Source of the DNA: Microglena sp. YARC
Lineage: Eukaryota > Chlorophyta > Chlorophyceae > Chlamydomonadales > Chlamydomonadaceae
Assembly: GCA_022414725.1 (NCBI GenBank)
Contig: CM039462.1
Coordinates: 12,813,610 to 12,877,609 of the forward strand
Reading direction: 5' to 3'
DNA length: 64,000 bases
The number at the start of each line of letters is the position of its first letter. Position 1 is the first letter of the stretch. Shown here in pieces: positions 7,564 to 64,000 of this stretch. The translations under genes and the position numbers were made by a program. The notes below the pieces were generated by a model, which was not told the origin of the DNA, did no database searches, and saw only the letters and a program-made list of their open reading frames with translations.

Positions 7564-10500
7564 TCAGCTGGCATTGGGGATGTGGGGTTGTGGCCTAGGT
7601 GGAGCCTGGCGGTAGCCACATTCAAAAGCACCCGTGGTTAATGAGTTGCACAAGTACAGGGCGTAGTTGTGCCCCCACGGGCGCCCATCAACTGGGCCCA
7701 AGCGCCCGTGGGGGCCCATCAGCTGGGCATAAGCGCCCGTGGGGGCCCAGTTGATGGGTTCAAAAGCGCCCGTGGGGGCCCACTTGATGAGTTGCACAAC
7801 TACAGGGCGTAGTTGCGTCAAAAGCGCCCGTGGTTGATGAGTTGCACAACTACATCAATTGGCAGTGCGTCTGTGCAGTCACAGATGCTTTGTGTATGTG
7901 TTATTGCTGACAGAACTGGTAGCTTCCGGTTATTTGTGCAGCTGAACATGACCAGGCCATAGGATCCAACCTCACCAGCTCTTGATCTTGCATTCTGTAG
8001 CTCCGTTACCAGCTGTTGGGGCTGCGCCAGGCTGGCAAGTGATGTCACCATGTAGCCTCCAATCTGGAATACCAAGAGTTAGTGTGTGTATGTTACAGTA
8101 CAGGGGTATCCAGGGGGAAGGGGGTAATGAATGAATAATAATGAATAAGTCACTACAAAGTAGACTGGGACTGAGACAGAGACTGAAACGGAGAAGCAGA
8201 CTGACACACAGAGATAGACAAAGGCTGACACACAGAGATAGACACAGACAGAAACACAGAGATAGACAAAGGCTGACACACAGAGATAGACACAGACAGA
8301 CACACAGAGATAGACAAAGGCTGACACACAGAGATAGACAAAGGCTGACACACAGGGATAGACACAGACAGACACACAGAGATAGACAAAGGCTGACACA
8401 CAGAGATAGACACAGACAGACACACAGAGATAGACAAAGGCTGACACACAGAGATATACAAAGGCTGACACACAGGGATAGACACAGACAGACACACAGA
8501 GATAGACAAAGGCTGACACACTGAGATAGACACAGACAGACACACAGAGATAGACAAAGGCTGACACACAGATATAGACAAAGGCTGACACACAGGGATA
8601 GACACAGACAGACACACAGAGATAGACAAAGGCTGACACACAGGGATAGAAACAGACAGACACACAGAGATAGACAAAGGCTGACACACAGAGATAGACA
8701 CAGACAGACACACAGGGATAGACACAGACTAACACACTGAGATAGACACTGAGACTCAGACAGATAGAGAAGCAGACCTAGGCACTGAGACTGAGACTGA
8801 GACAGAGAAGCAGAATGGCACACACAGACAGAGACACAAAGACAGAGGAAATGGTTGAGCTCCTAGAAAGAACGAAGAAATTGCTGTGTTCAAATCTCCA
8901 CGGGTGCGATTTAGTGTTCGCGGTCGCTGTCAACCGCCATGGTAGTTTTGTCCAGGTAAAGTACCAGCCCGTTCCCTACCGCCGTAAGACGGGGTTCCCT
9001 TAATACCACGCCCCACCAGGGGTTATGCCACCCCCCATCAACATGCCTTTATACCACCCGCCACCACGCGTTATCATTACACTGATGACCTTTGTGATCT
9101 GAGCTATGATGGTACAGACGTGATCTGAGCTATGATGGTACAGACGTGCGACTAACCCTATCAGTCATCTCAAATGGCTTAAATCGAAATTCAAACGCCA
9201 GCATCAACAAAAATTTCCCATGCTCTGCAAATAACTAGGGAACGGCAACGAACGGCAACAATATACCACGCCTCACCAGGCGTTATCATTACTGCATGGG
9301 AGCCTGGGTGAGGGGGCAATATATTCAGGGGTCGGCTATATTGTATAATATTAGTAAATAAATAATATTATATAATATTATATAATATTAGTCGGACGAG
9401 CTGTCTCACCAGAATTTCGAATTTATTTGGAAAACTAATATTATTGTGGCACTATAATAATATAAGTTAATTTTAGTTTTTCAAGCACTAATATTAGTTT
9501 CTGTTTGCTAAATATATCCATGCATGTGCATGAGTGTAGGGGTAGCCCAATAGGCTGGAGGGACCTGCCCAACCTCAAAATATTCCAGATCAATTATTGA
9601 TTGGGGGCTATTGATTCCAGATCAATTATTCCAGGGCTATTCCAGATCAATTATTGATTGGGGGCTACTGATTCCAGATCAATTATTCCAGGGCTATTCC
9701 AGATCAATTATTGATTGGGGGCTATTGATTCCAGATCAATTATTCCAGGGCTATTCCAGATCAATTATTGATTGGGGGCTATTGATTCCAGATCAATTAT
9801 TCCAGGGCTATTCCAGATCAATTATTGATTGGGGGCTATTGATTCCAGATCAATTATTCCAGGGCTATTCCAGATCAATTATTGATTGGGTGCTATTGAT
9901 TCCAGATCAATTAGTCCAGGGCTATTCCATATCCATTATTTATTGGGGGCTATTGATTCCAGATCAATTATTGATTGGGGGCTATTGATTCCAGATCAAT
10001 TATAGATTGATTGGGGACTAACAAACATTCGACAAGGCAGGAAGACACGACAAAACAAGTCATATGCAGCGGCGCAAGCGACGCGGAAAAATGGCGGAGT
10101 GTGTTGGCAACGGAACGACAGGTGGCAACGATGGAGCTGACCGAAGCCAGTTAGTTATGAGACAGTTAGCTGACGTGTCAGGCATCAATTTTTGGTCGAT
10201 CAGACGGACAAATGGGTAACCCTGGGGGCTCCCGCCCCCCACAAGGGGAGGCTCCGCCAAAAAATGTTCCAGTACCCCCCCCCCCCCCCCCCCCCCCCAA
10301 AATAAAGGTTGGACCTACTGCCAAACACAGGTTTAACCGAGGTATAACTAAAGGTCGGTGTAACTACATACCCCCCCCCCCCCCCACTCACTCACACCCA
10401 CATACAACCCAATAGCTGCCCCCCCCCCCCCCCCCAAAAAAAGAAATAAGGGTTGGACCCCACCGCCAAACGCAGGTTTAACCGAGGTATAACTGAGGTC

Positions 10501-13500
10501 GGTTAAGTATAACCAACCCTCCCTATGCCCCTTCCTCCCTATTGTTTTTTTTCTTCCGGCACTACGGTAGCGGCACTACAGTAGCGGCACTACGGTAGCA
10601 GTACTACGGTAGCGGCAATATGGTAGCGGCACTATAGTAGCGGCACTACAGTAGCGGTACTACAGAGGCAGTACTACAGTAGCGGTACTACAGTAGCAGT
10701 ACTACAGTAGCGGCACTATAGTAGCCGTTCGGAAACCTCGAAGGTCATCTCTTGGCCCGCTGTGTAGAGAACCTGTTATAAACCGGATTATATACCGGCT
10801 CTAGAGTGGCTCAGAGCAGCCAGTGTCTAGTCCCAGCCTTGCTCTGTGCAGTGTCTAGTCCCAGCCTTGCTCTGTGCAGTGCCTGTGTCAGCTGTTACCA
10901 CATGCACTGTCATGCAGTACTACCTGTACTGCCGCCCGCTTCTATACTAGTCCGCTACGGCGGCGACTATCCTATATATAATAGCGCGTTGTCCGTGATA
11001 TGGTTTAGCCCTTTGGGCCCAGGCAGTTAGGCTTTTGGTTTCTTGGTTTCGGATCTCGATTTTCCGAGACATGTCGCTGACGTGGCCACTAGGGTCCTCC
11101 CGTCGGTACGATGGGCTCAGATGCTAGTCCGCTACGGCGGCGACTATCTATCTAATGCCTACTGAGTCACAATCCAGTACCTGTCTCCTCCCCGTGTCTG
11201 CAGTCTCCCTCTACAGATTATCAAAGAACAAGGGCCACACAGGTTACTAACATTGACACTGAAGACCACTCATCGATTGGGATACAGGGCAAGATTTTCC
11301 TCCGGTCACTTGATGATTTCCCACCCGTACTCAGGGACACCTTAGGGATTTACATCCTCCAGTTGTCAGCGTGGATCAAGGCAAAGCAGCTTTCAGACTA
11401 CTCTCAATCCAAAACACCAGACAACTACCTGTCACCCCCTCACCCCACCCCACAAAACTGAGCACACGCTCGCATCCATACCCTAACCCACACTCACGCA
11501 AGCACCCCCCCACACACACACACAAACACCCACCAACCCACACAAACACCCACCACGCAAACACACAAATATGTAGGGGTCGGCTATGGAATATAATATT
11601 AGTGAATAAATAATATTATATAGTATTAGTCGGACGAGCCATCTGACCAGAAATTAGAATATATTTGAAAAACTAATATTATTGTGACACTACAATAATA
11701 ATATTAGTTAATATTAGTTTTCCAAACACTATTTTTAGTTGCGGTTCCTTACACAGATGTACAAACTCACTTTAAAGTGTGGCTTCGTGTCCACCCCACC
11801 CCACAAACCTCAACACATGCTCACATCCATATCCTAACCCACACTCACCCACCCACCCACCCACCCACCCACACGAGCACCCACCCACTCACACAAACAC
11901 CTGCCAACCCACACAAACACCCACCACGGATACACAAAAAAATGTACACATTCACTTTAAAGTGTGGCTTGGTGTCCATGTGCTCAATCTGGATTTGAAT
12001 TTGAATTTGAATAATATGGGTGTCACTCTTCTGTACAAACTTACTTTACAGTGTGGCTTTGCATCGATGTGCTCAATTTGAATTTGAAGAATATGGGTGT
12101 CACTCTTCTTGTCTAGGACTTTGAGCACTGCGTTTCCCGTAAAGGGGTGCACCCTGGTCAGGGATTTTTTTTCTAATCTGAAAGTGACTTTTTGCTAGCT
12201 TTTTGGTTTTAGTCCTCCTCCAAGAACAGCCTCCATATAGCAATTTCTGGGCGGCCCAAAGGGCTGCCCCAGGGGGCAGCGCCTTGAGCTGGGGGGGAGG
12301 GGGGGGGGGACTGGGGGGGTCCCTGGTGATCCACTTGGTCTGTTGTCTTGCACCTAGTCCCACTGCATCTCCTTCTTTCTCCTGAAATGTCTTGTGAAAG
12401 TCCTGGTTTTGCTTGCACCTACGGGAAACGTTGAAGGGGGTAGGATGGGCAAGAAGTGAAAGCATGGGTGGACTGTGAGCAGGGTTGTGAGCATGGGTGG
12501 AGTGTGAGTATGGTAGGAGTGTGAGTATGGTTGGAGTTTGAGCATGTATGGATGGAGTGTGAGCATGTATAGATGGAGTATGAGTATAGTTGGAGGGTGC
12601 GTATAGTTGGAGTGTGAGCATGTATGGTTCGAGTGTGAGCATGTATGGTTGGAGTGTGAGCATGTATGGTTGGAGTGTGAGTATGGTTGGAGTGTGAGCA
12701 TGTATGGTTGGAGTGTGAGTATGTATGGTTGGAGTGTGAGCATGTATGGTTGGAGTGTGAGTACGTATGGTTGGAGTGTGAGCATGTATGGTTGGAGTGT
12801 GAGTATGTATGGTCGGAGTTTGAGCATGTATGGTTGGAGTGTGAGCATGTATGGTTGGAGTGTGAGTATGGTTGGAGTGTGAGCATGTATGGACGGAGTG
12901 TGAGCATGTATGGTTGGAGAATGAGTATGGTTGGAGTGTGAGCATGTATGGTTGGAGTGTGAGTATGGTGCGGGTATGAGCATGTATTGTTGGAGTGTGA
13001 GCACATATGGTTGGAGTGTGAGCATGTATGGTTTGAGTGTGAGTATAGTTTGAGTGTGAGCATGGTTTGAGTGTGAGCATGTATGGATGGAGTGTGAGCG
13101 TATATGGTTGGAGTGTGAGTGTGGTGCGAGTATGAGCATGTATGGTTGGAGTGTGAGCATGTATGGTTGGAGTGTGAGTGTGGTGCGAGTACGAGCATGT
13201 ATGGTTGGAGTGTGAGCATGTATGGTTGGAGTGTGAGCATGTTTGGTTGGAGTGTCAGTATAGTTGGAGTGTGAGCAAGTACGATTGGAGTGCGAGCGTG
13301 TATGTGAGGAGGGTTATCATGCATGGGTGGATGTTGAGCATGGTATGCTGATGGAATGGCCTGGCATGGTTTGGTATGGTATGGTGATTGCATGGGCGCT
13401 GGGGATGGCGTGGTAGGGGAAATCTCACCTTTTTTGTGATTTGGCCAGTCTTTCTTCTGGCACTCCTGTCCGCAGTAGGTGACACCTTTGCAGGTTTGGC

Positions 13501-15990: not shown

Positions 15991-15997
15991 CGGTGAT

Positions 15998-17405: not shown

Positions 17406-17419
17406 TTATTATAAATCAA

Positions 17420-18010
17420 AACAGTGAAACTCTCACGAGGCAAGAATCCAGATCCCGGGGCGAGATCTTCATAAGAGTCACCATCCTATGTAATGAGAGG
17501 TGCCGTGGGCATGATTACATTACACTATGTAATGAGAGGTGCCGTGGGCATGATCACATTACACTATGTTATGAGAGGTGCCGTGGGCATGATAACATTA
17601 CACTATGTAATGAGAGGTGCCGTGGGCATGATTACATTACACTATGTTATGAGAGGTGCCGTGGGCATGATAACATTACACTATGTAATGAGAGGTGCCG
17701 TGGGCATGATTACATTACACTATGTAATGAGAGGTGCCGTGGGCATGATAACATTACACTATGTAATGAGAGGTGCCGTGGGCATGATTGCATTACACTA
17801 TGTAATGAGAGGTGCCGTGGGCATGATTACATTACACTATGTAATTGGAGGTGCCGTGGGCATGATTACATTACACTGTGTAATGAGAGGTGCCGTGGGC
17901 ATGATTACATTACACTATGTAATGAGAGGTGCCGTGGGCATGATTACATTGCACTTCATTGTCATCAACAGGCTATTGTTGACGCAAGACACGTCAGCTC
18001 CACAACATAC
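17420..18010 (+). repeat. Dispersed element with an internal 39-bp array, 12 units
   Basis: The outer parts (GAGGCAAGAATCCAGATCC at the left, TTGTCATCAACAGGC at the right) match 14090-14250, where the inner block is present once. Here the block, containing GAGAGGTGCCGTGGGCATGA, is repeated about 12 times. The unit boundary TGTAATG...CATTACA is self-complementary, so each unit can form a hairpin. A (TTGGG) run at 18028-18066 follows. Confidence 0.85.
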
Positions 18011-18104: not shown

Positions 18105-21100
18105 CTTTTTCTAGGATAGATCGCAGCCTTGACCCATGTGTTCTCAGTGGGTTGCCCTCCAGTGTAAGTACACGCAGGACAGGCATGAATCCCACATAGG
18201 CTGGTATGCTGTTGATGTCGTTGTTCGACAGTCGAAGCTCCTCCAAACTGCATAACGTGTGGGGGAAGTGGGACTGGAATTAGTTTTCGAGTTTTGAATT
18301 GGTTTTGAATTCAAATTGGCATGGAGCCCACATAGGCTGACACAGTGTTGATGTGGGTGTTAGACAGTCGAAGCTCCACCTAGCTGCCAAATGGAGTGCA
18401 GACTTTTTTTTAATTCAAATTGGCATGGAGCCCACATAGGCCGGCACAGAGTTGATGTCGGTGTTCGACAGTCGAAGCTCCACCAAGCTGCCAAATGGAG
18501 GGCAGACTTGTTTTTGTAAATTCAAATTGACATGAAGCCCACTTAGGCCAGCACAGAGTTGATGTCGGTGTTCGACATTCGAAGCTCCACCAAGCTGGAA
18601 CGTGGAGGGCAGACTGGAAATAGTTATTGATTTTAATTGATTTTGAATTCAAATTGGCATGGAGCCCACATAGACCGAAACAGAGTTGATGTCGGTGTTC
18701 GACAGTCGAAGCTCCACCAAGCTGCCAAATGGAGGGCAGACTTTTTTTTAATTCAAATTGGCATGGAGCCCACATAGGCCAGCACAGTGTTGATGTCGGT
18801 GTTCGACACTCGAAGCTTTTCCAAACTGGAACGTGTGGGGGAAGTGGAACTGAAATGAATTTTTAAATTTTGAATCAGTTTTTTACCCGCTCACCTTGCC
18901 AACTCATCTATCTGATCTGGGATCACATCAAGAGGTGGGCAAACCACCAAGCTACCAACCACTCATCGCCACCACCACACCACACTACCAGCACCACCAC
19001 ACCACACTACCACCACCACACACCAGGTCACCAATCACCTTTGCCAAGTCAGCTATCTGATCTGGGATCACATCAAGAGGTGGGCCAACCACCAAGCTAC
19101 CAACCACTCATCGCCACCACCACACCACACCACACTACCACCACCACACCACACTACCAGCACCACCACACCACACTACCACCACCACACCACGGTCACC
19201 AATCACTTGCCAAGTCAGCTATCTGATCTGGGATCACATCAGGAGGTGGACCATCCACCACACCACACTACCACCACCACACCACCACCACCACACCAAG
19301 GTCACCCACTCACCTTGCCAAGTCAGCTATATGATCTAGAATCACTTCAATGGTTTCATCAGTCAGGTTCTTGAGTGACAAGGTCTAGATAGACAGAACC
19401 TCTACAGGGGAGTGGACCAACCACCAAGCTGCCAACCACTCATAACCACCACCACCACCACCACCACGGTCACCACAGTCACCCACTCACCTTGCCAAGT
19501 CAGCTATCTGATCTGGAATCACTTCAATGGTTTCATCAGTCAGGTTCTTGACTGACAAGGTCTAGAAAGACAGAGCCTCCATAGGGAAGTGAACCAACCG
19601 CCAAGCTACCAACCACTCATCACCACAACACCACCACCCACGGCACCAAGGTCACCCAGTCACCTTGCCAAGTCAGCTATCTGGTCTGGAATCACTTCAA
19701 TGGTTTCATCTGTCAGGTTCTTGACTGACAAGGTCTAGATAGACAGAGCCTCCATAGGGAAGTGAACCAACCGCCAAGCTACCAACCACTCATCACCACC
19801 ACCACCACCACGGCCACCACGGTCAACACTCACCTTGCCAAGTCAGCTATCTGGTCTGGGATCACTTCGATCTTGTTGTCCGCCAGGTTGAGATGTGACA
19901 AGGTCTAGAAAGACAGAGCCTCCATAGGGAAGTGAACCAACCGCCAAGCTACCAACCACTCATCACCACCACCACCACCACGGCCACCACGGTCACCCAT
20001 TCAACTTGCCAAGTCAGCTATCTGGTCTGGGATCACTTCGATCTTGTTGTCAGTCAGGTTGAAGCGTGACAAGGTCTAGATAGACAGAGCCCCCATAGGG
20101 AAGTGGACCAAGCACCAAGCTACCAACCACACATAACCACCACCACCACGGCCACCCACTCACCTTGCCAAGTCAGCTATCTGGTCTGGAATCAATTCCA
20201 TCTTATTGTCCGCCAGGTTGAGATGCGACAAGGTCAAAATAGACAGAGACCCCATAGGAAAGTGGACCAACCAACAAGCTACCAACCACTCATAACCACC
20301 ACCACGGCCACCACGGTCACCCATTCACCTTGCCAAGTCAGCTATCTGGTCTGGGATCACTTCCATCTTATTGTCCGCCAGGTTCTTGAGTGACAAGGTC
20401 TAGATAGACAGAGCCTCCATAGGGAAGTGGACCAACCACCAAAGCTACCAAACCACTTATCACACACCACACCACACCACACCACACCACGGCCACCCAC
20501 TCACCTTGCCAAGTCAGCTATTTGGTCAGGAATCACTTCAATCTTGTTGTCAGTCAGGTTGAGGTGCGACAAGGTCAAGATAGACAGAGCCTCCATGGGG
20601 AAGTGGACGGTGCCGGTGCGCGATAAGTCCAGGTCGGTCAGGTTGGGTGTATACAGGAGGAAGCTGTGTGGAAGCTGCCTGGCGATGGGAACACCTGGTG
20701 GGCGTGGTGTTGTATGTATGTTGTATTGTTGTTACAGTCCAGGGGTTGGCCAACTAGGCTGAAGATGTTGATTGGGTGAAGAGTTGGTGGGCAGGTGGAT
20801 GGCTGGGTGGGCAGCTTGGTGGGTAGGGAGGTCCGCGCATGAGTTCAGGTCGGTCAGGTTGGGTGGTTGGGTGGGTTGGTGGGTAGGGAGGTCGGCGCAT
20901 GAGTTCAGGTCGGTCAGGTTGGGTGGTTGGGTGGGTTGGTGGGTAGGGAGGTCGGCGCATGAGTTCAGGTTGGTCAGGTTGGGTGGTTGGGTGGGTTGGT
21001 GGGTAGGGAGGTCGGCGCATGAGTTCAGGTCGGTCAGGTTGGGTGGTTGGTGGGTTGGTGGTAGGGAGGTCCGGCGCATGAATTAGGTCGGTCAGGTTGG

Positions 21101-23163
21101 GGTGTTGGATGGGTTGGTGGGTAGGGAGGTCGGCGCATGAGTTCAGGTCGGTCAGGTTGGCTGGTTGGGTGGGTTGGTGGGTAGGGAGGTCCGCGCATGA
21201 GTTCAGGTCGGTCAGGTTGGGTGGTTGGATGGGTTGGTGGGTAGGGAGGTCCGCGCATGAGTTCAGGTCGGTCAGGTTGGGTGGTTGGGTGGGTTGGTGG
21301 GTAGGGAGGTCGGCGCATGAGTTCAGGTCGGTCAGGTTGGGTGGTTGGGCCGGTTGGTGGGTAGGGAGGTCGGCGCATGAGTTCAGGTCGGTCAGGTTGG
21401 GTGGTTGGGTGGGTTGGTGGGTAGGGAGGTCGGCGCATGAGTTCAGGTCAGTCAGGTTGGGTGGTTGGGCGGGTTGGTGAATAGGGAGGTCGGCGCATGA
21501 GTTCAGGTCGGTCAGGTTGGGTGGTTGGGTGGGTTGGTGGGTAGGGAGGTCGGCGCATGAGTTCAGGTCGGTCAGGTTGGGTGTATACAGAAGGAAGCTG
21601 TGTGGAAGCTGCCGAGCACTGGGAGACACCAGGGGGGCTAAAGGGGGGGGGGGGGGGGGGTAGTGAAAGGGGGGGTAGGTTGGTGGGTGGGCGGGGGGGG
21701 GTACGCGGGTAAGTGGGTGTGTAGGCGGATGGGTTGGTAGGGCTGGAAGGTGGGCGGGTGGGGTGTGTAGGGGGCAGGGAGGGGGGTTATAAGTGGGGCT
21801 GTTGGTGATGGAACAAGAAAAGGAAAAAAATATGTCCTGTTCTGACACAGACGCAAAAGAGGAAAGGCCTAGTTGTTAAGTAGCTGAGAGGTAGCTGAGA
21901 GCCAAGCCAATAGGTAGCTGAAAGGTAGCTGAGAGGAAGCTGAAAAGCAGGTGTACAAAAGGCTTACCCAAGGAGGGCAACACTCAAATGAAACCGAGAG
22001 GTAGCTGAGAGGAAGCTGTACACAAACATATACAAGCAGGCTTGCTGTAAGGTAGCTGAGAGGTAGCTGAGAGGTAGCTTAGAGGAAGCTGTACACAAAC
22101 ATATACCTCAAAAGGGGGGGCCGCGCTGCAAGGTAGCTGAGAGGTAGCTGAGAGGAAGTTGTACAAAAAACATATACCAGGCAGGGCAGCTGCCAGGGAG
22201 TCCTGCAAGCGTAGCTGAGAGGTAGCTGAGAGGTAGCTATGAGGTAGGTGTTTACAAACAGACATACTTGAATGTCGAGTCGGCGCAGCCAGGAGCACCG
22301 GCCAGCGGAGGCCTGCAAGGTAGTTGAGAGGTAGCAGAGGTGCTATAAGGTAGGTGTCAATAGACATACTGACATGTCGAGTCGGGCGCAGCCAGGGCAC
22401 GCGGCAGGGATGTCAGGCGGAGCTGCTGCAGGTGCTTGTTATTCGTGAGAATGAGCTAATGAGAGCTGGCGGCTGGCTGGGGGGAAAGGAGCAGGGGCAT
22501 TGGCTGAGGGTGCAATTGGCCAGATTGAAGGAAGTCATCTTTTGGAAGGTGGCCAAGGCGTTGGTGGGGATGGCTACCAGCTGAGGGGTGAGGAGGGAGG
22601 GGAAGGGTGGGGGTGGGGAGTAAGTGGGGTGGGGGCGGGGGCGGGGGGGGTAGGAGGAAAGAGAGGCAGGGGCCATTGGCTGAGGGTGCAGTTGGCCAGA
22701 TTGAGGGGTCATATTTTGGAAGGTGCCAAGCGTTGGGGGGGATGGTACCAGCTGAGGGGGAGGAAGGGGGGGGAGGGGGGTGTGGGGGTGGGGAGTAAGT
22801 AGGGGGGGGGGGAGGGGGGGGGGGTGGGGGGTGGGGGGGGTTGGGGGGGGGGGGGGGGGGGTGGGGGGGGGGGGGGGGGGGGGGGGGTGGGGGGGGGGGG
22901 GGGGGGGGGGTAGGAGGGAAGAGCAGGCGGGGCATTGCAGAGGGTGCAGTTGGCCAGATTGAGGGAAGTTCATATTTTGGAAGGTGGGCCAAGGCGTTGG
23001 GGGGGATGGCTACCAGCTGATGGGTACGGAGTCGCCGCTTGGGAGGGACCATTGAGCTGGGGGGGAGAAAGTAGGGGGTATAGTAAGTTAGGAGGGTAAG
23101 GAGGGGAGGGGGGGGGAGAAAGAGTGTAGCAATGTAGGGGCCGGTAAGGAGGGTAAGAGAGAG

Positions 23164-23195
<32 letters not shown>

Positions 23196-26100
23196 AGAGG
23201 AGGAGGGGAGGGGGAGTGGATAAGTTAGGAGGGGGTAAGGAGGGAAGGGGGGGGGAGGCGGGGGAGAAGGGTGACAAAGAGGTGAGTAGAGCAAGGGGGG
23301 GTAAGAGGGGGAGTAAAGTGAAGGAAGGAGGGTAAGGAGGGAGTTGTTTTTTGTTGGGATAGGTCCAGTTTGGCCACCACCACTGGATAAGTACAACAAC
23401 TTGGTACTGTTGGTGAGTTGCCCCAGTGCAGCATAGCTGTTCCATGCATTGACGGCTTACAGGCTTTTGGACAGGTCCACTTTGACCACCACTCTGGCTG
23501 GCCCCTCCCACTCATCTGGTGGTCACCTCAGTGAGTCCATCTCATCTCTATAGTTGCTACTGCACTGGCTTGTTACAGGATCCACCTTCGACCACCACTC
23601 TGGCCACCTCCCACTATCGTTTGGTGGTACCTCAAGTGAGTCCATCATCTCTATAGTTGCTACTCACTAGCTTGTTGGGCAGGTCACATTTGACCAACTT
23701 CTGGCCTCCCACTCGTAACTGGTGGTACCCTCAGTGAGTCCATCATCTCTATATTGTTGCTACTCACTGGCTTGTTGGACAGGCCCACTTCGACCGACCA
23801 CTCTGGCCCCCTCCATCGTGGCTGGTGGTAATCAGTGAGTCCATCATCCTCTATAGTGTACTCACTAGCTGTTGGGCAGGTCCATGCTGTCCACTTCGAC
23901 ACCACTCTGGCCCCTCCCACTCGTCTGTGTACCTCAGTGAGTCCATCACCCTTTAGGGTACTGTTCCACACTGGGTTGTTTGAGAGGTCCAGTTTTGACG
24001 TGCACACCCACTAAAAACGTACACCCACATATGTTGGTGGTCGCCCCCAGTGCAAGCAATGGGCTGCCCCTCTCAAACTCACGCCTCGTAATAAGGATAA
24101 CTCATTGATTAGCACTTGCTACTCAAAGGGTAATGTCAAGGCGCGCGCTTTTGCGCGTTTTGAGCGCTCACGGATTTTTGACCCTCTGCGTTTTTTAAAG
24201 CGAAAGTTTTTTGCAACTCCTGTGGGAGCAAGCAATTTTTTTGCGCTTTTTGCCACTAGAAAGCGCCAGTTTTAATTTTGTTTTCAGTGCTGCTATAGCA
24301 CTGGCCGATATGACAATCTTAAACACACGCTGCTACTCACAGGGCTTTTTGGAGAGTCCAGTTTGACACTACTCTGGACGCCTCCAACACGTCTGTGGTA
24401 ACATGTTTCTATTACTTTTTAAGTTTGGGGCTAGCTATGGGAGACCCAGACCCTTTAGGGGTTGCCACTCACTGGGTTGTTGGAGAGATCAAAGTTTGAC
24501 ACTACTCTGGCCACCTCCCACGCATCTAATGGACATATATACATGTGAGTTTGGGGCTAGCATAGGGAGACCACACCCTTTAGGGTTCCACTCATGGGTT
24601 GTCGGAGAGGTCCAGTTTGACCACTACTCTGGCCACCTCCCACGCGTATAATGGGACATATATACATGTTGAGTTTGGGGCTAGCATAGGGAGACCCACA
24701 CCCTTTAGGGTTGCCACTCACTGGGTTGTCGGAGAGGTCCAGTTTGATCACTACTCTGGCCACCTCCATGCGTCTAATGCGGGACATATATACAAATTTT
24801 GAGTTTGGGGCTAGCTTAGTGGAGACCCAATCCTTGTAAGGGTTGTTACTTACTGGGTTGTTGGAGAGGGCAAGTTTGACACCCACCCAATAAATACGCC
24901 TCACCTGAAACTCCCCGCTGGTGGTTGGCCCTGGCCCAAGAAAACATGTTTCCCCCCTCAAACTCACGCCTCATAATAAGGCATACTATTTATTTATTTA
25001 TTGTCACTTACAGGGTTGTTGGAGAGGTCCAGTGTGATCACTACTCTGGACGCCTCCAACACGTCTGGTGGTACCTGTTACATTTAATTTGAGTTTGGGG
25101 CTAGCAATAGGTAGAACCCACACCTTGAGGGTTGTGACTCACTGGTTGTTGGAGAGATCAAGTTTGACCCACAACTCTGAACGCCTCACACGTCTGCGGT
25201 GGTACCTCAGGTCCCTCAGGTCACACCCTTTAAAATTGTTACATCACTGGGTTGTTGGAGAGGTCAGTTTGATCCACAACTCTGGACGCCTCCCACACGA
25301 TCTGTGTGTACCTCAGTGAGTCCTACACCTTTGAGGGAGAGCTCGTGGCTGCCTCACTGATAGTCATCTTCTGGCAGCTTCGCAGCTAAGGTAGATTCGT
25401 CATGCCATCACATTGCCTGATCGGGGGCGCCCTTGGTGGCCATGCATGGGCATGCTCCGTTGTCCTGCCGGATTTGAGGTACTTCATCAGGCCACTGATG
25501 GGACTGCAGAGGGGGGCATGGAAAGGGGCTGGAGATATGAAGTCTGTCTATCAGTCTGTCTGTCTGCCTATTTGTCATTTGTCTGCCTATCTGTCTGTCT
25601 GTCTGTCTGCCTGCCTGTCTGTCTGTCTGTCTGTCTGTCTATCAGTCTGTTGTCTGTTGATGTCTGTTCTGTCTCCCTGTCTGTCTGTTTGTGTGTGTGT
25701 GTGTATGTTGTTTATAACAGTTAGCGCTTAGCCGGGACAAAGGGACTTGAGGTTACTTCATAAGGCCATCTATGGGAGCTGCAGGGGGGGCATGGGAAAG
25801 GGGCATGGGAAATGACGTCTGTCCGTCTTAGACCTGTCCACATTACCTAGCTACTTCAATATCACTATCCTCTGCACTCACCCGCAACAATCTCCCTCTG
25901 TAGCTTCAAGGCTTGCGTCCAGCCGCATCGACCTCAGACTGTCCATGTTGCCTAGCTAGATAAATACCACCATCTACTTTAACAGCACTATCCTCTGCAC
26001 TCACCCGCCACAATTGCCCTCCTGGTGGGCTTCAAGGGGTTGCCGTCCAGCCGCATTGACCTCAAGCTGTCCATGTTGCCTAGGTAGATAAATACCACCA

Positions 26101-28789
26101 TCTAGTTCAACAGCACTATCCTCTGCACTTACCCACAATAATCTCCCTCTTGATGGGCTTCAAGGGGTTGCCGTCCAGCGGCATCGACCTCAGACTGTCC
26201 ATGTTGCCTAGCTAGATAAATACCACCATCTAGTTCAACACCACTATCCTCTCCACTCACTTGCAACAATCTCCCTCCTGATGGACGCTGCATAGGACTT
26301 GTTATGTTGTGTCGCTCTGTCCTCGTCGATACACCACTGTGGGTGCTGTTTGTCGGTTTGCCTGTTTGTCTGTCTGTTTGTCTGTCTGTTTGTCTGTCTG
26401 TTTGTCTGTCTGTTTGTCTGTCTGTTTGTCTGCCTGTTTGTCTGTCTGTTTGTCTGTCTGCTTGTCTATCTGTATGTCTGTGTTGTCTGTCTGTTTGTCT
26501 GTCTTTCTGTCGTGTCTGCACTCACCTGCCACAATCTCTCCCTCCTGATGGCTTTTCAAGGGGTTGCCGTCCAGCGGCATAGACTCAGGCTATCCTGTTG
26601 CCTAGCTCGCTGGTAGGTTCTTGTCAGGTCGTTGTTGGAGTCAGGTCGAGAGTGACAGGCGGAGGGTGCACATACCAACAGGCAGCTGCTGCAGTTTGTT
26701 GTTACGGAGGTCCAGAGTCAGCAGCTCCTTGCACTGACCCAACTCGTCAGGCAGATAAGTGACTAGATACGAAGCCTGAGGAGTGTGCGGGAGTGTGTTT
26801 GGTGTGTTGTCTGTGACGCAGTTCAGGGGTAGGCTGAATAGGCTAAGGGACTTAAAGTGTGGGGGAAGGGGGCGGAGGGGGGGAGGGGGGGGGGGAGGGG
26901 GGGGGGTGGGGGCGAGAGGTAATGATGGTGGGAGAGGTGATGGTGAGTTATGGATGGGGTGGTATTGCTTTTAAAGGTCAGGGGTGGTTTTTTGTTTTAA
27001 GGTTCCAGGTCAGCAGCTCCTTGCACTGACCCAACTCTTCGCAAGCAGAACGTGATCGCGTTGAAGCCTGCGGAGTTACGTGTGTATGTGTGTGTTGTGC
27101 GTGTGAGTGTGTAAAGTGGTGTTACACGTTCAGGGGTAGGCGAACTAGGCTAAAGGAACTTGAGTGAGTGTGTGACTCTGTGTGGGTGTGAGGGGGTGGA
27201 CTGAACGATGTATGGGGTGTGGGAGGTGTGGGAGGTCCGTTGTGATGGGAGGGACTGTGGGAGGTGGGTGGGAGGGAGGAAGGGGTGAGGGGAGGGGGGA
27301 GGGGGTGGGCGGGGGACGATGATGGATGAGTGAGAGGTGATGGTGGGTATGGATGGGGGGGCGGGCGCGGTATTGTTTTGAAGGTGGAGGAGTGGTTATT
27401 TTGTTTCAAGGTCCAGAGTTAACAGCTCCTTGCACTGACTGACCCAACTCTTCCTGCAGAGTGCTGATCGCATTGAAGTCTGCGGAGTGTGTGCGGTGTT
27501 GTGTGCATGTATGTTACAGTTCAGGGGTAGAGCTTCAGGGTCCAGGGTCAGTAGCTTCCCTTGCACTGACTGGCACACACTCTTCCGCAGAGTGCTGTAT
27601 CGCATTGAAGTCTTGCGGAGTGGGCTGCGGTATGTGTGTGTACATTACAGTTTAGGGGAAGTTTTCAAGTCCAAGGGTCAGTAGCTCCTTGCACTGACAC
27701 AACTCGTCAGGCAGAGTGCTGATCGCGTTGAAGCCTGAGGAGTGGGTGCGGGGAGTGGGTGCTTGGGAGTGGGGGTGGAAGTGCGGGGGGTGTTGGAGAG
27801 GGGGGAGGTGAGGTACGGGTGTGCTGCTGGGTGTGGGGTGGGGGGGTAAATGGGTGGTTGTACTGGTGTGTGTGTGTGTGTGTGTGTGTACACACGCAGC
27901 TCAACACTCCCACCCTGTCAACAGCTCATCAAGCGCAAGCTGTAGCTTGCAAGGGAGGGGGAATATATGGCCTGGCATGTTTCTTTCGAATTACCTGAGC
28001 AGTCTCAGTACTTGTGTGTGTTGTATGTTTGTGTGTGGTAGTGTTGTGTCGTAATGTGTTGTGTGTGGGGGGGGGGGGGGGTGGGGGGGGGGGGGGGGGG
28101 GGGTGGGAGGGGTCCATAACAGGGTTACCAGCTCAACACTCACCCAGCTGCAGTTCAATCAAGCCGCGGCAGCTTGCAAGGGAGGGGGGAATGGCAGCTC
28201 GTATAATAGCTTGTTTATCTCGTCTAGTACTATTGAGGCTAGGTGAGGAAACAATTTTGAGGTAGGGGACGGATATGTTAGAAGAATAACTTGAAGATGG
28301 ACCGCTGAGCCGGTTCTTGGACACGTTAAGTTCAGTGAGAGATTGACGCATAGCTCCGGCGAGTATGAATGGCTGGAGGATGGAGATTCGGTTGTTGGAG
28401 AGGTCGATCTTGGTGATGGAGCTGCACTCACTCAAGCCTAAGCAAGAGGGGGGAGATGTTTGATTTTGAATTGCGACATGGCACAAGAGGCATGAATGAA
28501 AGCGGAAAAGTATGAAGGTGAGGATGAGATTCGGTTGTTGGGAGGTCGATCTTGGTGATAGGAACTGCACATTGCTCAAGCCTTGCACTAGAGGAGATGG
28601 ATGATCTATTTTGTTTATTTCTGTTAGTATATTTATTTATCTGGTCTACTTATTTATTTATTTGTTTATTAGTATTGAAAGGATATTCTCCAGGAAGGGG
28701 GCCTGCTTTTGGTGCTGACAGTGAGAAGATCGAGCAAAAATAAAATGGCACCCACCTGGGGCCCCCTTCATAGCTAGAAACACTGACAA

Positions 28790-28872
<83 letters not shown>

Positions 28873-31800
28873 GATGGTTCTGACGGTGGAAAGTCGAGCA
28901 AAAAGACCCATATGGCACCACCTGGGCCCTTATAACTAGAAACACTGACCAGAGGGGGGGGGGGGGGGGGCGGGGGGGTCCTTAATGTTTTGCAGATGCT
29001 TCAATTGTAACAAGTACAACATAAATACCAAATAAAACAGAAAATGCAAATGTATCGCAGGAAATACAAATTCACAAACAGGAAATACCAAAAAATACAA
29101 GTAAATACACAAATAAAACAAAATACAAAATTACCACAGGAAATACAAATTCACAAACAGGAAAAATACAAAATTATCACAGGGAAATAAAAATACACAA
29201 CAGGAAGTACCAAAATTATCACAGGAAATAAAAATACACAAAACAGAATTACAAAAATAAAACATAAGAAAATACAAACATATCACAGGAATAAAAAACA
29301 CAAACAGAAATCCCAATCAAACATATAGGGAAGGCTACTTGAGTTTCCTCCAACTATTGTTTCAGCTGCTTCAATTTTTAAAGCAATTACCACAGGAAAT
29401 TGAAAGTGACAATAAAAGACAGGGAAGGAATATTAAACAAGTGGAGCCTCACCTCAATGTTTCTGCCGATGCTTCCAATTTGGAACAAATCCCTAGGAAA
29501 CAATGTTCTATGAGCGTCGCCAACAATACCTAGGAAATGGCGGAGAGAAATCGCGACGGGAGCGACAGCCAGGTGGCAACGGAAGCAGTCTTCAGTTACG
29601 AGACCGCTTGGCTGGTGTGTGAGCTTCATCACGGTCAGGCGGGTGGTTGGATGGTCGGTCACGGACAACGAAACAGTTAACATGGAGGCTTCCCGCCCCG
29701 AAGGGGGGCTGCCGCCATAAAATATAATAATAAAACGACGGGAAAGAGCATACTAACCAATGGGGAGTTCCTCAATATTGTTTATCATGCCCGCATCATT
29801 GCTTTCAATTTCAAACAAACATCGCGGGGAAAGAAGAAAAGACTGGAAGGATACTAACAGGTGAGGGGGTCCACACTTTGTTGCACGATTGCTTCGTTTG
29901 GAAAAATACCTCAGAAATACAAAAACGAGTCGGAAATGAAAAGGAACCACAGGAAAAAAAGATGGGAAGGATACTAACCAGGTGCAGGGGCCGGTCGTTC
30001 CTCAACGTTGTGCCGATGCTTCAGTTGGAACAAGTACTGCAGAAATACAAAAACGAGTCGGGAAAATGCAAGAAGTACCTCAGGAAAAACAGACTGGGAA
30101 GGAATACTAACCAGGGGGCAGTCAATCAATGTTGTTTTCATCATGCTTCAATTTGAACAAATATCGCAGAAAATACAAAAACGAGTACGAGGTAATGCCA
30201 AAAGTCCTCAGAAAGAATTAACTGGCCCAGGGATATAACCAGGGGAAGTATCCTCAATATTTTTTCATCATGCTTCAATTGGAACAATATCGCAGGCGGA
30301 AAAGACGGAAAAAAAACGGGAAAGGTGCACTAACCCATGGGGAGTTCCTCATGTTATTTCCAGACTGCTTTCAATTTAAACAATACGCAGAAAATACCAA
30401 AAAACAATCGGAAATGCAAACGTACCTCAGGAAGACTTGGGAAGGCGATACTAACCAGAGGGAGATCCTTGATGTTGTTTGCAATTTCATGCTTCAATTT
30501 GGAACACAAATAGTCGCAGAAAATAACAAAAATAAAGTCGTGAAATGCCAAAAATACCTCAGGAAAAGACTGAAGAGGATTTACTTGCCAGGTGAGGGGG
30601 GTCCACAACGTTGTTGTTAGCGCGATGCTTTCATTTGAACAAATACTGCAGAAAATACAAAAACATTCGGGAAATGCAAAACGTACCTCAGCGAAAAGAT
30701 GCGAAGGGATACTAACCAGCGAGAGATCCTGATGTTGTTGCATTTCATGCTTCAATTTGAAACAAATATCGCAGAAAATAAAAAAGGTCGGGAAATGCAA
30801 AGTACCTAAGGAAAAAGACTGGGAAGAGATACTAGCCAGGATAGCGGGGGGTCCTTGGCAACGTTGTTGCCGCGATGCTTCAATTTGAGAACAATACTGC
30901 AGGAAAATACAAAATCAAAAGTCGGTAAAATGCAAAAACAGTACCTCCGAAAAAAGTGGGAAGGGATACTAACCATGGTGAGGGTTGGCGGGTCCTCAAC
31001 GTTGTTGCCGATGTTCAGTTGGAACAAATACCATGCGATAATACCAACAACGAGTCGGGAAATGCAAAAGGCCTTAAGAAAAGGACTGGGAAGGGATTAC
31101 TAACCAGGTGAGGGAGGGGTTCCTATTTGTGCCGAATGCTTCCAGTTTGGCCAGTACTCCACGAAATACAAAACGCGAGTCCTGGAAATATGCAAAAAGC
31201 ATACCTCAGGAAAAAGGGGACTGGAAGGGATACTAACCAGGTGAGGGGGGGGTTCCTCAACGTTGTTGGCGCGATGTTCAGTTTGGAACAAATACTGCAG
31301 AAAATACAAAACGACCTCGGGAAATGCAAAAAAAGTACCTCAAAAGGAAAAATTACTGGCCAGAGTCATTAACCAGGGGGAAGTTCCTCAATATATATTT
31401 CATCATGGCTTCAATTGGAACAAATATCGGCAGAGGAAAGACGGACAAAAGCACTGGAAGGATACTAACAGGGGAGTTCCTCAATGTTTATTTCCAGCGC
31501 TTCAATTTAACAAATTACCGCAGACAATACAAAACTGTAGGGAAATGCAACAGTACCTCGGAAAGATGGGAAGGGATACTACCAGGGAGAGGGGGGGTTC
31601 CTCCAACGTTGTTGCGCGATGCTTCGTTCATGAACAAATATGCAGATAATACAAAACGAGTTGGAAATGCAAAAACGATTACATCAGGAAATAAAGGGGA
31701 GCTGGAAGGGGATACTTAACCAGCCGTGAGGGAGGGGTTCTCAACGTTGTTTGACGCGATTGCTTCAGTTGGAACAAATACTGCAGAAAATACATAAAAA

Positions 31801-37685: not shown

Positions 37686-37743
<58 letters not shown>

Positions 37744-41189: not shown

Positions 41190-41226
<37 letters not shown>

Positions 41227-41898: not shown

Positions 41899-50529
<8,631 letters not shown>

Positions 50530-52907: not shown

Positions 52908-52981
<74 letters not shown>

Positions 52982-55900: not shown

Positions 55901-58900
55901 TCATCATCATCATCATCATCATCAATTCATCATCGTGCCGCGATTGCTTCGCTAGGTTCGTAGACTAGTAGGGTTACATGGACACATTGTGCAGTCGCCC
56001 TGAATCATCCCCTAAAGGCCATAGGCTAAAGCCCTATTTGTAGCAGGATAGGAGCAGGACTGTTAGGGGGCCTGCCCCTACCACTCTTACCAGGAGCAGT
56101 GGCAGTGGCAGTGGCAGCCCCCCCCCCCCCCCCCCCCCCCCCCCTCTCCACTCACCTCTCCGCAGCCAGCTCGGTTTGCTGAGCCCCCCTTGCATGCCTT
56201 CATGTGCGCGTTCGCAAGTTCCAGGAACAGTCGACGGCTCAAACTGCCCATATAGATCTACATAGATAGGGGTGGGCGTCGGACAAGGGATATCGATACA
56301 TCTATCGGCTTCGCGAATATATATCTTTATAGATCTGTATAGACCGATGGATCTACATAGATCTATCGGTCTTTGCCTCTCCCTAATTATGTCATCATAT
56401 GATACCATTGTATGCCGTCAGTCTGACCAGGCTAAAGTTACCATTTATATACAATATCATATGATATCATAGTCGCCTTTGGTAAGCACCATACTATATC
56501 CCGGTCCCTTCTGAAACAGAATGGAGCTTGACAGGTGGACACCCTTGAACAAAGACAATTGGAATTTGCTTTGGGTCGCTTTCAGGCCTTGACTTAAATT
56601 AAGGGAACAGCAATATGATATAATATGATATCATATGATACCATTTTATGCTGTCAGTCTGACCAGGCTAAAGTTACCATATATATACAATATCATATCA
56701 TATCATAGTCGCCTTTGATAAGCACCATACTATATGCCGGTCCCTTCTGAAACAGAATGGAGCTTGACAGGTGGACACCCTTGAACAAATACATTTGGAA
56801 TTTGCTTTGGGTTGCTTTCAGGCCTTGACTTAAATTAAGGGAACGGCAATATGATATAATATGATATGATAAATATGATGTCATATGATTTCATGTCATC
56901 ATATGATATCATACGATTCCGGCAGTCTGACTAGGCTAAAGCTACCATGTATATAAAATATCATATGAATATATGATGCAATGTGTATGAAAGCATATGA
57001 TATCATATGATTACATATTTTCATAAATTGATATCCATAATATGATATCATGTATATAAAATATCACATGATGCAATTTGTATGAAATCATATGATATCA
57101 GTTACCTTTGGTCAACGTCATATGATATGCCGGTCCCTACAGCAACCGATTTGAGTAACCCTTGGGGGCTCCCGCCTCCTCTAGGGGGCTCCGCCCAAAA
57201 CAATGATGTCCTGTAAAAACTTCCATCTCATTAAAGCCTGTTGCAGGTAGCAGATTTGAGTTTGCAAGGGAAAGGGTCATCTTGAACAGATGCAATTTAC
57301 CTTTGTTCAATTACATCTGCTTGGTGATCGGGTAGGATTACAACTTCAAACAAGATAAACAGTGAACAACATCACCCACCCATATTGAGGCACTTAAGAA
57401 GCTGACATTGACCTTTGTTCAATTGACCTTTGTTCAGGTTGCTTGAAGGCCTTGACTTAAATATAGGGAACGGCAATATGATATCATATGATATCATATG
57501 ATGCCGGCAGTCCGAATAGGCCAAAGTTACCATGTTTATACAATGTCACATGGTGCAATTGACCTTTGTTCGGGTTGCTTGAAGGCCTTGACTTAAATAT
57601 AGGGAACGGCAATATGATATCATATGATATCATGCCATCATTTGATATCTTATGATGCCGGCAGTCCGAATGGGCCAAAGTTACCATGTATATACAATAT
57701 TGTATATACACATGGTGCAATATGTATGCTATCATATGATATCAAAGTCGCCTTGGGTAAACATCATATGATATGCCGGTCCCTGCTGTAACATATCTGA
57801 GTTTGAAAGATGAACACTCTTGAACAAATTCTATTGGAATTTGCTTTGGGTTGCGTTAATGCCTTGACATAAATCCCTTGGATTGTCAGAATTGCATTGC
57901 TTTGAATTTCAGTTTGAGCACTGTTATAGCTGTTCAGGGGATGAATTGGACAAACCGTTTCCGCGAGAACTCGTACTTCGTACTTCGTTGAGAATTTTGG
58001 CCTGGAAATACGAGAATTCTCGACAATTTGGCCTGGGATTCTCGACAATTCTCGAAGAAGTACGAACCGTATGTCCAGTTCATCCCCTGAATTGCTATAA
58101 CAAGAGAGGCAGACAGGCAGTCCACAGCTATATGCTGACAAGTACCAACCCACTACCATCCACCAACTACGCACCTTCACAATTAAAAAAAAAAAAATTG
58201 AGCACCAACCCACTACCACCCACCCACTACCCACCATTCACACTTTTTTTAATGTTAGTTTGAGCACCAAGCCAATACCACCCACCACTTTGAGCATCGA
58301 CCCAGTACCACCCACCACTTTGTTTTGAATTTCAGTTAGAGCACTACAATGTTTTGAATTTCAGTTTGAGCACCAACCCACTACCCCCCACCACTTTGTT
58401 TTGAATTTCAGTTTGAGCACCAACCCTGTGCCACCCACCACTTCGTTTTATTTTCAGTTTGAGCACCATTCCACTACCCACCTTCGAACTTTGTTTTGAA
58501 TTTCGGTTTGAGCACCAATCCACCACCACCCACCCACTACCCACCATTCACACTTTTGTTTTGAATTTCAGTTTGAGCACCGACCTAGTACCACACACCA
58601 CTTTGTTTTGAATTTCAGTTCGAGCACTACGATGTTTTGAATTTCAGTTTGAGCACCAACCCACTACCACCCACCACTTTGTTTTGGATTTCAGTTTGAG
58701 CACCAACCCTGTACCACCCACCACCTGTCTTTTAATTTCAGTTTGAGCACCAACCCACTACCACCCATCCACTACCCACCATTCACACACTGTCACACAG
58801 TCAAGCAAGCTCCAAGCATCCAGTTTGAGCACCCCCTGCACCACCCAATGCCACCAACTCTGCCACCCACCCACTTACCACTTGTACAAAAATCTACAAA

Positions 58901-59302
58901 CTTCAACCACCCACCACTTCAAACAAACCCTACCCACACCATACCATTCACACACCTCTACGCTGTCCCGCAAGCTCCAAGCAACCACCCAATACCACCA
59001 AATCTTCCTCCCACCCATCCACCCACCCTGCCACCACTTGCACAAAATCCCACAAACTTCGACCACCCACTACTTATAACAAACCCTACCCACGCCCCAC
59101 CATTCACACACTGCCACACAGTCCCGCAAGCTCCAAGCATCCAGTTCGAGCACCCCCTGCACCTCCCAATACTGCCAAAAATATACGAACTTCACTCACC
59201 CACCACTTACAACAAACCCTACCCCCGCCTACTACAAATTTGTTTCTGAAGGCATGTATTCAGATTATACCCCCCCCCCCACACACACACACCACCACCA
59301 CC

Positions 59303-59352
<50 letters not shown>

Positions 59353-62300
59353 CCACACAGTCCCGCAAGCTCCAAGCATCCATTTTGAGCACCCCCTGCA
59401 CCTCCCAATACCGCCAAAAATCTACAAATTTCAACCACCCACCACTTACAACAAACCCTACCCCTGCCCTACTGAAAATGTGTTGCTGAAGGGCATGTAT
59501 GCAGATTATACCCCCCCCCCCCCCCACCCCCCCCCACACACACACACTTCCACACAGTCCCGCAAGCTCCAAGCATCCATTTTGAGCACCCCCTGCACCA
59601 CCCAATACCGCCAAAAATCTACAAATTTCAACCACCCACCACTTAAAACAAACCCTACCCCTGCCCTACTATAAATTTGTTGCTGAAGGGCATGCAAGCA
59701 GATTATATCCCCACACCCCACCCCACACACACACAAATACACACACACACGTACACACACACGCACACACACTATCTCGCAGTCCCGCAAGCTCCGAGCA
59801 TCCAGTTCGAGCACCCCCTGCACCAGCACTACAAATACCGCAAAAAATCTACAAACTCCAACCAACCACCACTTCCGACAGACCCTACCCACGCACCCCC
59901 CCACCCCCCTACACACACTGTCACACAGTCCCGCAAGCTCCAAGCATCCAGTTCGAGCACCCCCTGCACCACCCCACCCCACCCCCCACACACACAAATA
60001 CACACACACACATACACACTGTCTCGCAGTCCCGCAAGCTCCAAGCATCCAGTTCGAGCACCCCTTGCACAATTCAAAGATACCAGCAGTTTGCCGTCTG
60101 CCCAATGTGGAGCTACAGTTTGAGCACCACGTGATGATGAGCAGTGCTATCAAGGAGGCAAGCTACAGCAGACTGCAACAGTAGGTTGGGGGCGGGACCG
60201 ATGGGTGGGTGGGTAGCAGTAGGGGTAGTGGTGGTGGGGTTGGTGGTGGTGGTGGGGTAGGTGGTGGGGGGGGAGTAAGGGTGGTGGGGGTAGGTGGTGG
60301 TGGGAATAGGGGTGGGGATGGGGCTGGGAGTAGGGTTGGTGGTTGTGGTGGTGGTGGTGGGGAGGACAAGTGCTCAACACGAAGTTTCAGTTTGAACACC
60401 ACGTGATGATGAGCAGGGCTTTCAAGGAGGCAAGCTACAGCAGACTGCAACCATAAGTTGGGAGTGGGACCGATGGGTGGGCCGGTATGAGTAGGGGAAG
60501 GTGGTGGGGTAGGTGGTGGTGGTGGTAGTTTAGGAGTAGGGGTGGTGTTGGTTGTAGGTTGGGAGTGGGACCGATGGGTGAGCCGGTATGAGTCTGTGTG
60601 GTGGTGGGGCAGGTGGTGGTGGTGGTGGTAGGTTAGGAGTGGAACCTATGGGTGGGAGGGTAGGAGTAGGGGTGGTGGTGGGGTAGGTGGTGGTGGAGGT
60701 AGGTGAGGAGTAGGGGTGGTGTTGGTTGTAGGTTGGGAGTGGGCCCGATGGGTGGGCCGGTATGAGTATGGGTGGTGGTGGTGTAGGTGGTGGTGGTGGT
60801 AGGTTAGGAGTGGAACCTATGGTTGGGAGGGTAGGAGTAGGGGTGGTGGTGGGGTAGGTGGTGGTGGTGGTAGGTTGGGAGTGGAACCGATGGGTGGGAA
60901 GGTAGGAGTAGGGGTGGTGGTGGGGTAGGTGATGGTGGTGGTGGTAGGTTAGGAGTGGGACCTATGGGTGGGAGGGTAGGAGTAGGGGTGGTAGTGGGGT
61001 AGGTGGTGGTGGTGGTAGGTTGGGAGTTGGACCGATGGGTGGGAGGGTAGGAGTAGGGTGGTGGTGGGGTAGGTGGTGGTGGTGGGGTAGGTGGTGGTGG
61101 TGTTAGGTTGGGAGTGGGACCGATGGGTGGGAGGGTAGGAGTAGGGGTGGTGGTGGGGTAGGTGGTGGTGATGTTAGGTTGGGAGTGGAACCTATGGGTG
61201 GGAGGGTAGGAGCAGGGGGGGTGGTGGGGTAGGTGGTGGTGGTGGTAGGTTAGGAGTGGAACCTATGGTTGGGAGGGTAGGAGTAGGGGTGGTGGTGGGG
61301 TAGGTGGTGGTGGAGGTAGGTGAGGAGTAGGGGTGGTGTTGGTTGTAGGTTGGGAGTGGGACCGATGGGTGGGCCGGTATGAGTATGGGTGGTGGTGGGG
61401 TAGGTGGTGGTGGTGGTAGGTTAGGAGTGGAACTTATGGGTGGGAGTGTAGGAGTAGGGTTGGTGGTGGGGTAGGTGGTGGTGGTGGTGGTAGGTTAGGA
61501 GTGGGACCTATGGGTGGGAGGGTAGGAGTAGGGGTGGTGGTGGGGTGGTGGTGGGGTAGGTGGTGTTGGTTGTAGGTTAGGAGTGGGACCTATGGGTGGG
61601 AGGGTAGGAGTAGGGTTGGTGGTGGGGTAGGTGGTGGTGGTGGTGGTGGTAGGTTAGGAGTGGGACCTATGGGTGGGAGGGTAGGAGTAGGGGTGGTGGT
61701 GGGGTAGGTGGTGGTGGTGGTGGTAGGTTAGGAGTGGGACCTATGGGTGGGAGGGTAGGAGTAGGGTTGGTGGTGGGTAGGTGGTGGTGGTGGTTGGTTG
61801 GGAGTGGGACCGATGGGTGGGTGGGTAGGGGAAGGGGTGGTGGGGTAGGTGGTGGTGGTGGTAGGTTGGGAGTGGAACCGATGGGTGGGAAGGTAGGAGT
61901 AGGGGTGGTGGTGGGGTAGGTGGTGGTGGTGGTTGGTTGGGAGTGGGACCGATGGGTGGGTGGGTAGGAGTAGGGGTGGTGGTGGGGTAGGTGGTGGTGG
62001 TGTTAGGTTGGGAGTGGGACCGATGGGTGGGAGGGTAGGAGTAGGGGTGGTGGTGGGGTAGGTGGTGGTGGTGGTGTTAGGTTAGGAGTGGAACCTATGG
62101 GTGGGAGGGTAGGAGTAGGGGTGGTGGTGGGGTAGGTGGTGGTGGTGGTTGGTTAGGAGTGGGACCGATGGGTGGGAGGGTAGGGGAAGGGGTGGTGGTG
62201 GGGTAGGTGGTGGTGGTGGTAGGTTAGGAGTGGAACCTATGGGTGGGAGGGTAGGAGTAGGGGTGGTGGTGGGGTAGGTGGTGGTGGTGGTTGGTTGGGA

Positions 62301-64000: not shown

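Follow-up and report, generated by a model that had tools for sequence, protein, structure and literature searches.

Introns in a 64,000-nucleotide stretch of DNA (the window) were found to contain tandem arrays whose units carry the end of the adjoining exon together with its splice site. Repeated tandem duplication across splice junctions in unrelated genes of both strands, as the preliminary description had proposed, was seen in the window and at Ras and TCP-1 loci elsewhere in the genome; 47 of the 119 exon edges sampled had copies (35/95 outside the window). The exon borders of the genes sampled carry such copies no more often than the surrounding non-coding DNA. The arrays most probably result from very frequent local tandem duplication in non-coding DNA, combined with the geometry of duplications that cross a border and with purifying selection.

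Junction copies in the genes of the window

The window is eukaryotic, has a GC content of 0.50, and belongs to a genome of 568 Mb in 2390 contigs. The LRRC40-like gene, RAB6, and a MYND-finger exon all lie on the minus strand. The LRRC40-like gene extends over about 38.9–18.1 kb with weak to moderate LRR matches; its homologues, among 120 of 244 matches listed, included a Tetraselmis LRR protein and frog LRRC40 at ~30% identity, and the closest organism-named relative among them was that of Tetraselmis (31% identity). The N-terminal tail of its protein (~200 residues; window 38194–38918, minus strand) is rich in Gln, Gly, and Pro. RAB6 matched the solved Rab6A structure with an E value of 4.7e-92. 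For the plus-strand gene, the name ATG11 was not upheld, with no Pfam match above the curated cut-off in the nine plus-strand frames tried and, for one frame compared with PDB, only low-complexity or tag sequences, by reading, among the best 60 of 485 matches (E up to 10). Retroelement open frames were observed on the plus strand at 1636–5886, inside which tandem repeats were looked for and none found; in the first frame (1636–5031), the domains scoring above cut-off were reverse transcriptase, RNase H, and integrase zinc-binding, with a protease and an integrase core below it, and the frame is Ty3/Gypsy-like by reading. Further arrays, with units of 73, 39, 35, and 12 bp, lie outside known exons at 16578–17955 and 62352–63845.

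Each of 18 junctions (12 of LRRC40 and 6 of RAB6) was represented by a query of 60 bases from the exon and 50 from the intron. As listed in Table 1, copies of the exon end and splice site were detected in the adjoining intron at 10 of the 12 LRRC40 junctions; the 49 donor copies were all downstream and the 17 acceptor copies all upstream. The preliminary description had claimed such copies for exons 1–10 of this gene; that was borne out at these 10 junctions, but the search for junction-spanning copies at the donors of exons 2 and 5 returned none, and the exons between 26.7 and 20.7 kb were not resolvable. Between the acceptor of the exon at 20,679 and its copy lies a 60-bp array that contains exon sequence, as judged by eye. 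In RAB6, two clear cases and one weak case were obtained for the 12 junctions: the first search covered six junctions (three with copies, one of them weak), and another aligner applied to all 12 gave copies at two, none at nine, and none at the exon 7 acceptor. Copies at exons 5–7 of RAB6, also claimed earlier, were thus clear at the exon 6 donor and the exon 5 acceptor, and weak only at the exon 7 acceptor. One further RAB6 match, 24 kb away on the opposite side with E 0.016, looks like chance. In the MYND-gene region, where copies had been claimed for at least one exon, one of three tested junctions had them, at a putative exon without homology support. For the exons 2–5 assigned to ATG11, the acceptor at 60,029 stood, under a gene name that is unconfirmed; at the candidate acceptors 60,118 and 60,390, by contrast, 8/9 matches fell on the wrong side, and these are probably not true acceptors.

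The rule that copies of donors are found downstream and those of acceptors upstream held for 128 of 130 copies pooled (72/73 and 56/57 in the two sets). Outside this count, 1/9 matches fit it at the doubtful acceptors at 60.1–60.4 kb. This sidedness is to be expected because a tandem duplication across the border of an exon leaves the intact exon outside it: of the head-to-tail units that would arise over a junction, the one joined to the exon body would be the exon, and all others would be found within the intron. The rule could be broken only by dispersed copying or by duplication of a whole exon.

Table 1. Arrays and copies at exon edges of the window, with related features
Feature	Position in window	Strand	Observation
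LRRC40 exon 1 donor (exon ends 38193), copies downstream	37520..38193	-	4–5 copies, exon part 15–61 bp
LRRC40 exon 2 acceptor array	36262..37400	-	5 upstream copies, exon part 111 bp in every one
LRRC40 exon 3 acceptor copies	33939..34830	-	2 copies amid CAC-type microsatellites
LRRC40 exon 3 donor array	29430..33822	-	30–33 copies over 4.4 kb, mostly 93–137 bp apart
LRRC40 exon 4 acceptor	28438..28660	-	1 upstream copy, indel-rich stretch
LRRC40 exon 4 donor	27860..28145	-	1 downstream copy
LRRC40 exon 5 acceptor	26776..27760	-	3 upstream copies, indel-rich stretch
Apparent whole duplication of a small LRRC40 exon, including its two splice edges	25851..26284	-	Unit 128 bp, 3.4 copies; partly by eye
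Donor-type LRR exon-end array, indel-rich	23462..25350	-	Partly by eye
Acceptor of exon at 20,679	20679..21640	-	1 upstream copy
LRRC40 donor array (exon ends 20505)	18894..20505	-	10 copies
Residual core, innermost donor copy to innermost acceptor copy	18850..18894	-	45 bp; 69 bp with next AG
LRRC40 last-exon acceptor array	18274..18850	-	5 upstream copies, exon part 90–92 bp; two candidate acceptor AGs
RAB6 exon 5 acceptor	46787..46910	-	1 upstream copy
RAB6 exon 6 donor	43080..43309	-	1 downstream copy
RAB6 exon 7 start, weak decayed copies	42560..42915	-	One at E 0.018; others by eye
Counter-example array, RAB6 intron 5	44323..46378	-	53/167-bp units; no copy detected at either intron edge
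Donor-type copies downstream of putative MYND-finger gene exon	11760..12045	-	2 copies
Plus-strand acceptor at 60,029	58798..60070	+	7 upstream copies, 41-bp exon part in 4/7

Sequence quality was assessed by comparing segments of each array with their best other copy and counting gap openings per substitution. This ratio was 0.32–0.85 in the arrays at 22.0–25.4, 26.7–28.7, and 29.7–31.95 kb (the last being the distal part of the exon 3 donor array) and 0.27–0.75 at 18.95–19.3, 31.95–33.85, 37.5–38.2, and 53.4–53.8 kb, where differences were mostly fewer. It was at most 0.22, with 2–16% substitutions, in most other arrays, and those at 18.3–18.85, 19.3–20.5, 34.4–37.5, 44.3–46.4, and 58.2–62.3 kb are clean by this measure. 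The single-base indels suggest that the indel-rich parts of the LRRC40 introns are probably poorly polished long-read sequence, so that the age of copies cannot be read there. By eye, the LRRC40 exons within 22000–25400, 26700–28700, and 29700–31950 appear frameshifted. A pure G run of 80 bases is present on the plus strand at 28792–28871.

Exon edges and local copy density at other loci

The genome was searched with the Ras family, and 19 stretches were taken from the 36 matches, 3 of which were the RAB6 of the window. Of the 33 other matches, 32 lay whole within one stretch; in 16 of these, copies overlapped the coding part. Splice sites were assigned without RNA, from consensus scores in the vicinity of domain-match ends; 19/50 Ras-family edges had a local copy, and 41 of 44 copies were on the expected side. 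Two edges at which a copy had been mistaken for an exon were dropped before the edge test, leaving 17 of 48 with junction copies. At one locus (L014), an upstream exon-start copy (4316–4411 in coding orientation) scored as a Ras-domain match in its own right, which serves as a warning for annotation that such a copy can pass for a real exon. At another Ras-family locus (L016), 93% of sampled non-coding positions lay in tandem copies.

Tandem copies covered 2134/7956 non-coding and 18/161 interior coding positions of the Ras loci, and 521/1952 positions (27%) of eight control stretches placed at round coordinates. Expected edge counts were derived from each locus's own local copy density; they include edge-derived copies, and some positions taken as non-coding may be unrecognised exons. 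On this basis, 29 of the 72 Ras, LRRC40, and RAB6 edges had copies within 1 kb versus 26.9 expected (P = 0.32), with 21 versus 24.5 within 300 bp and 29 versus 27.8 within 3 kb. In four TCP-1 genes, chosen from 64 matches because several of their exons fitted one stretch, 18/47 edges had copies versus 24.1 expected (P(≤) = 0.048), and 17 versus 22.3 and 18 versus 24.3 at the other two distances; from this set one match within a stretch (L038) was left out, and the L039 edges 6150 and 6170 may not adjoin an intron. Were all arrays born at edges, the coverage of edges should equal or exceed that of interiors, which is not clearly the case in the samples taken. These counts told against the genome-wide process at exon–intron borders put forward in the preliminary description, and its own refutation test, the comparison of junction copies with other intron copies, yielded no junction excess. 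Its further statement that the pattern is not chance held insofar as the pattern recurred at the Ras and TCP-1 edges, but not in the sense of exceeding the surrounding non-coding DNA.

Growth and content of the arrays

The larger arrays consist of head-to-tail units with a common unit boundary, as in minisatellites, while some small arrays are mixed. The exon-side endpoint was shared within the larger ones: 111 bp in 5/5 copies, 90–92 bp in 5/5, 40 bp of exon end in 24/30 in the exon 3 donor array, which is the longest, and 104 bp in 7/10 in the 20505 donor array, whose three innermost copies have 36–37 bp. These shared endpoints suggest that the largest arrays grew mainly from one founding duplication by later amplification, with which the additional 473-bp period given by TRF for the exon 3 donor array is also in agreement. 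Endpoints were mixed in four arrays, namely those of the exon 1 donor (61, 18, 15, and 18 bp), the exon 3 acceptor, the exon 5 acceptor (82, 77, and 66 bp), and 60,029 (41 bp in 4/7). At some edges there was more than one duplication, or later trimming. Repeated duplication was supported as an event that happened many times across genes, but the shared endpoint disfavours repeated copying from the edge in the largest arrays. The position of the junction within the unit, and thus the exon share, was compatible with a uniform distribution over 12 units (KS P = 0.19), some unit lengths being estimated by eye.

The identity of copies to the exon, nearest first, was 0.81, 0.84, 0.84, 0.79, 0.80, 0.78, and 0.77 in a clean donor array, followed by 0.55, 0.55, and 0.46 in three shortened copies; it was 0.84, 0.74, 0.79, 0.79, and 0.80 in a second array, and 0.73, 0.75, 0.78, 0.74, and 0.80 in a third. 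The three thus display one mild fall with distance, one flat course, and one mild rise. An age gradient along the exon 3 donor array was set aside, as its distal copies lie in indel-rich sequence. Nor was the exon recognised as the root of the copies, copy–copy and exon–copy identities being nearly equal in two arrays (0.71/0.72 and 0.78/0.79); in the third, the copies were nearer to each other (0.84) than to the exon (0.76).

The conservation of the splice dinucleotide was evaluated at 44 edges with copies (91 donor and 80 acceptor copies), leaving out the acceptors of the 20,679 exon and the last LRRC40 exon and the RAB6 exon 7, MYND, and 60,029 edges. It was kept at 165/182 donor positions versus 1770/2002 flanking ones (P = 0.40), and at 142/160 acceptor positions versus 1484/1760 (P = 0.17). 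Counted per edge, the dinucleotide stood above rather than below its flanks at 13 versus 7 donors and 19 versus 3 acceptors, although a two-base mean favours such an outcome and these counts are not a fair sign test. In rank of conservation, the junction was high in two donor arrays (15/165 and 7/124) and stood at 92/195 in an acceptor array. In-frame stops were present in six of seven full-length copies from the donor at 20,505 and in two of five exon 2 copies, the other three of which are open and LRR-like. Differences between exon and copies were uneven among codon positions (18, 23, 63 and 29, 13, 46). Coding constraint on the copies themselves was considered and rejected, the variable columns by codon position being non-significant (P = 0.18 and 0.24).

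Among 39 introns measured, the 22 with edge copies at one or both ends were longer than the others (median 1606 versus 1018 bp, P = 0.023). The residue between the innermost copies of the 11 introns with copies at either end amounted to 45, 179, 187, 190, 213, 241, 250, 262, 516, 856, and 2558 bp; the last LRRC40 intron has a donor copy and an acceptor copy separated by 45 bp of intron. RAB6 introns 1 and 2, which have no copies, are 86 and 128 bp long. These lengths are suggestive, though only that, of growth from short introns.

Origin of the arrays and related systems

We favour, as the probable explanation, ordinary local tandem duplication, to which the non-coding DNA of this genome is extremely prone. 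The segments duplicated are mostly of ~90–320 bp; one crossing a donor would leave units of exon end plus intron start after that donor, and one crossing an acceptor would leave units of intron end plus exon start before it. The copy joined to the exon would keep the splice site in use, so that the protein would be unchanged and the extra units harmless within the intron, whereas exon-internal duplications would alter the protein and be removed by selection. The larger arrays would then amplify mainly from one founding duplication, as for unequal exchange or slippage. We infer that the outer sites are the spliced ones, and the removal of exon-internal copies by selection and the molecular cause of the duplications are to be read in the same way. 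Arrays also occur with no exon edge detected in them, in RAB6 intron 5 and outside the genes known here.

A mutational process at the splice junctions themselves, by which R-loops, nicks, or splicing intermediates would repeatedly copy exon edges into introns, might account for the many edges of unrelated genes with copies (up to 33 at one donor), for the mixed endpoints of some arrays, and for the mild identity fall in the one clean donor array, which is what growth from the edge would give. Such a process is nevertheless improbable, given the lack of an edge excess over local non-coding density at 119 edges, the one endpoint shared by most copies in the largest arrays, the abundance of other tandem repeats in introns and control stretches, and a junction position compatible with a uniform distribution. 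Somewhat better placed, though still doubtful, is the proposal that many introns consist for the most part of copies of their borders, in which donor and acceptor arrays would have grown towards each other in short ancestral introns and left a small residual core. Were it true, the intron length of this lineage could be broken down into its copies and each of these dated. Of the bases of the 39 introns, 37% fall in the span from an exon edge to the innermost copy of that edge versus 20% in other tandem repeats, a figure that would weigh against the favoured explanation if it called for edge preference.

Retention of the copies for use as decoy or backup splice sites, or to provide alternative ends for LRR exons, is less likely again than a junction process. 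The open, LRR-like exon 2 copies, the well-conserved junctions of two donor arrays, and the per-edge lean of the dinucleotide would suit it; the pooled dinucleotides, however, are not significantly above their flanks, in-frame stops are frequent in the full-length donor copies of the exon ending at 20505 and present in two exon 2 copies, and Ras and TCP-1 genes, which lack LRRs, show the pattern too. Selection for reserve splice sites, raised in the preliminary description, hence retains the per-edge lean, clearest at acceptors, but not the pooled counts. Least likely of all, to the point of being very hard to credit, is that the arrays are assembly artefacts: the stretches with high gap ratios, the seemingly frameshifted putative exons there, and the G run would agree with it, but most other arrays differ by substitutions at low gap ratios, and the pattern recurs at edges outside the window, where base quality is unmeasured.

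Local tandem duplication across junctions would offer a concrete route of intron lengthening without a transposon. With near-copies beside the used site in ordinary housekeeping genes, these loci also constitute a natural laboratory for splice-site choice. Intronic minisatellite or VNTR arrays have head-to-tail units, common unit endpoints, and higher-order periods, features likewise found here. The present arrays differ from them in that their units often take in coding sequence as well as a splice site, and do so in many genes of one genome. Within the open-licence PMC titles and abstract openings searched, no description of introns made of exon-edge arrays was found. The AGGT-duplication model of intron gain shares with our explanation a genic tandem duplication tolerated because splicing removes the extra sequence; that model duplicates an exon-internal AGGT to create a new intron, whereas the copies here cross existing junctions. 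Introners (PMC9860276) likewise are repeated sequences that bear splice sites in many genes, but they form one mobile family, and the copies here, on the basis of local searches only, derive from the gene's own exon edge. The closest precedent is the potato RdRp gene, in which a tandem duplication crossing an intron–exon boundary is reported to have given a new intron (PMC4974935). There as here, the duplication holds the exon edge, the splice site, and adjoining intron sequence. The single-event version is thus already known from potato, and what is unusual here is the scale: in place of a single duplication, existing introns are lengthened by up to ~33 copies, at two-fifths of the edges sampled (47/119).
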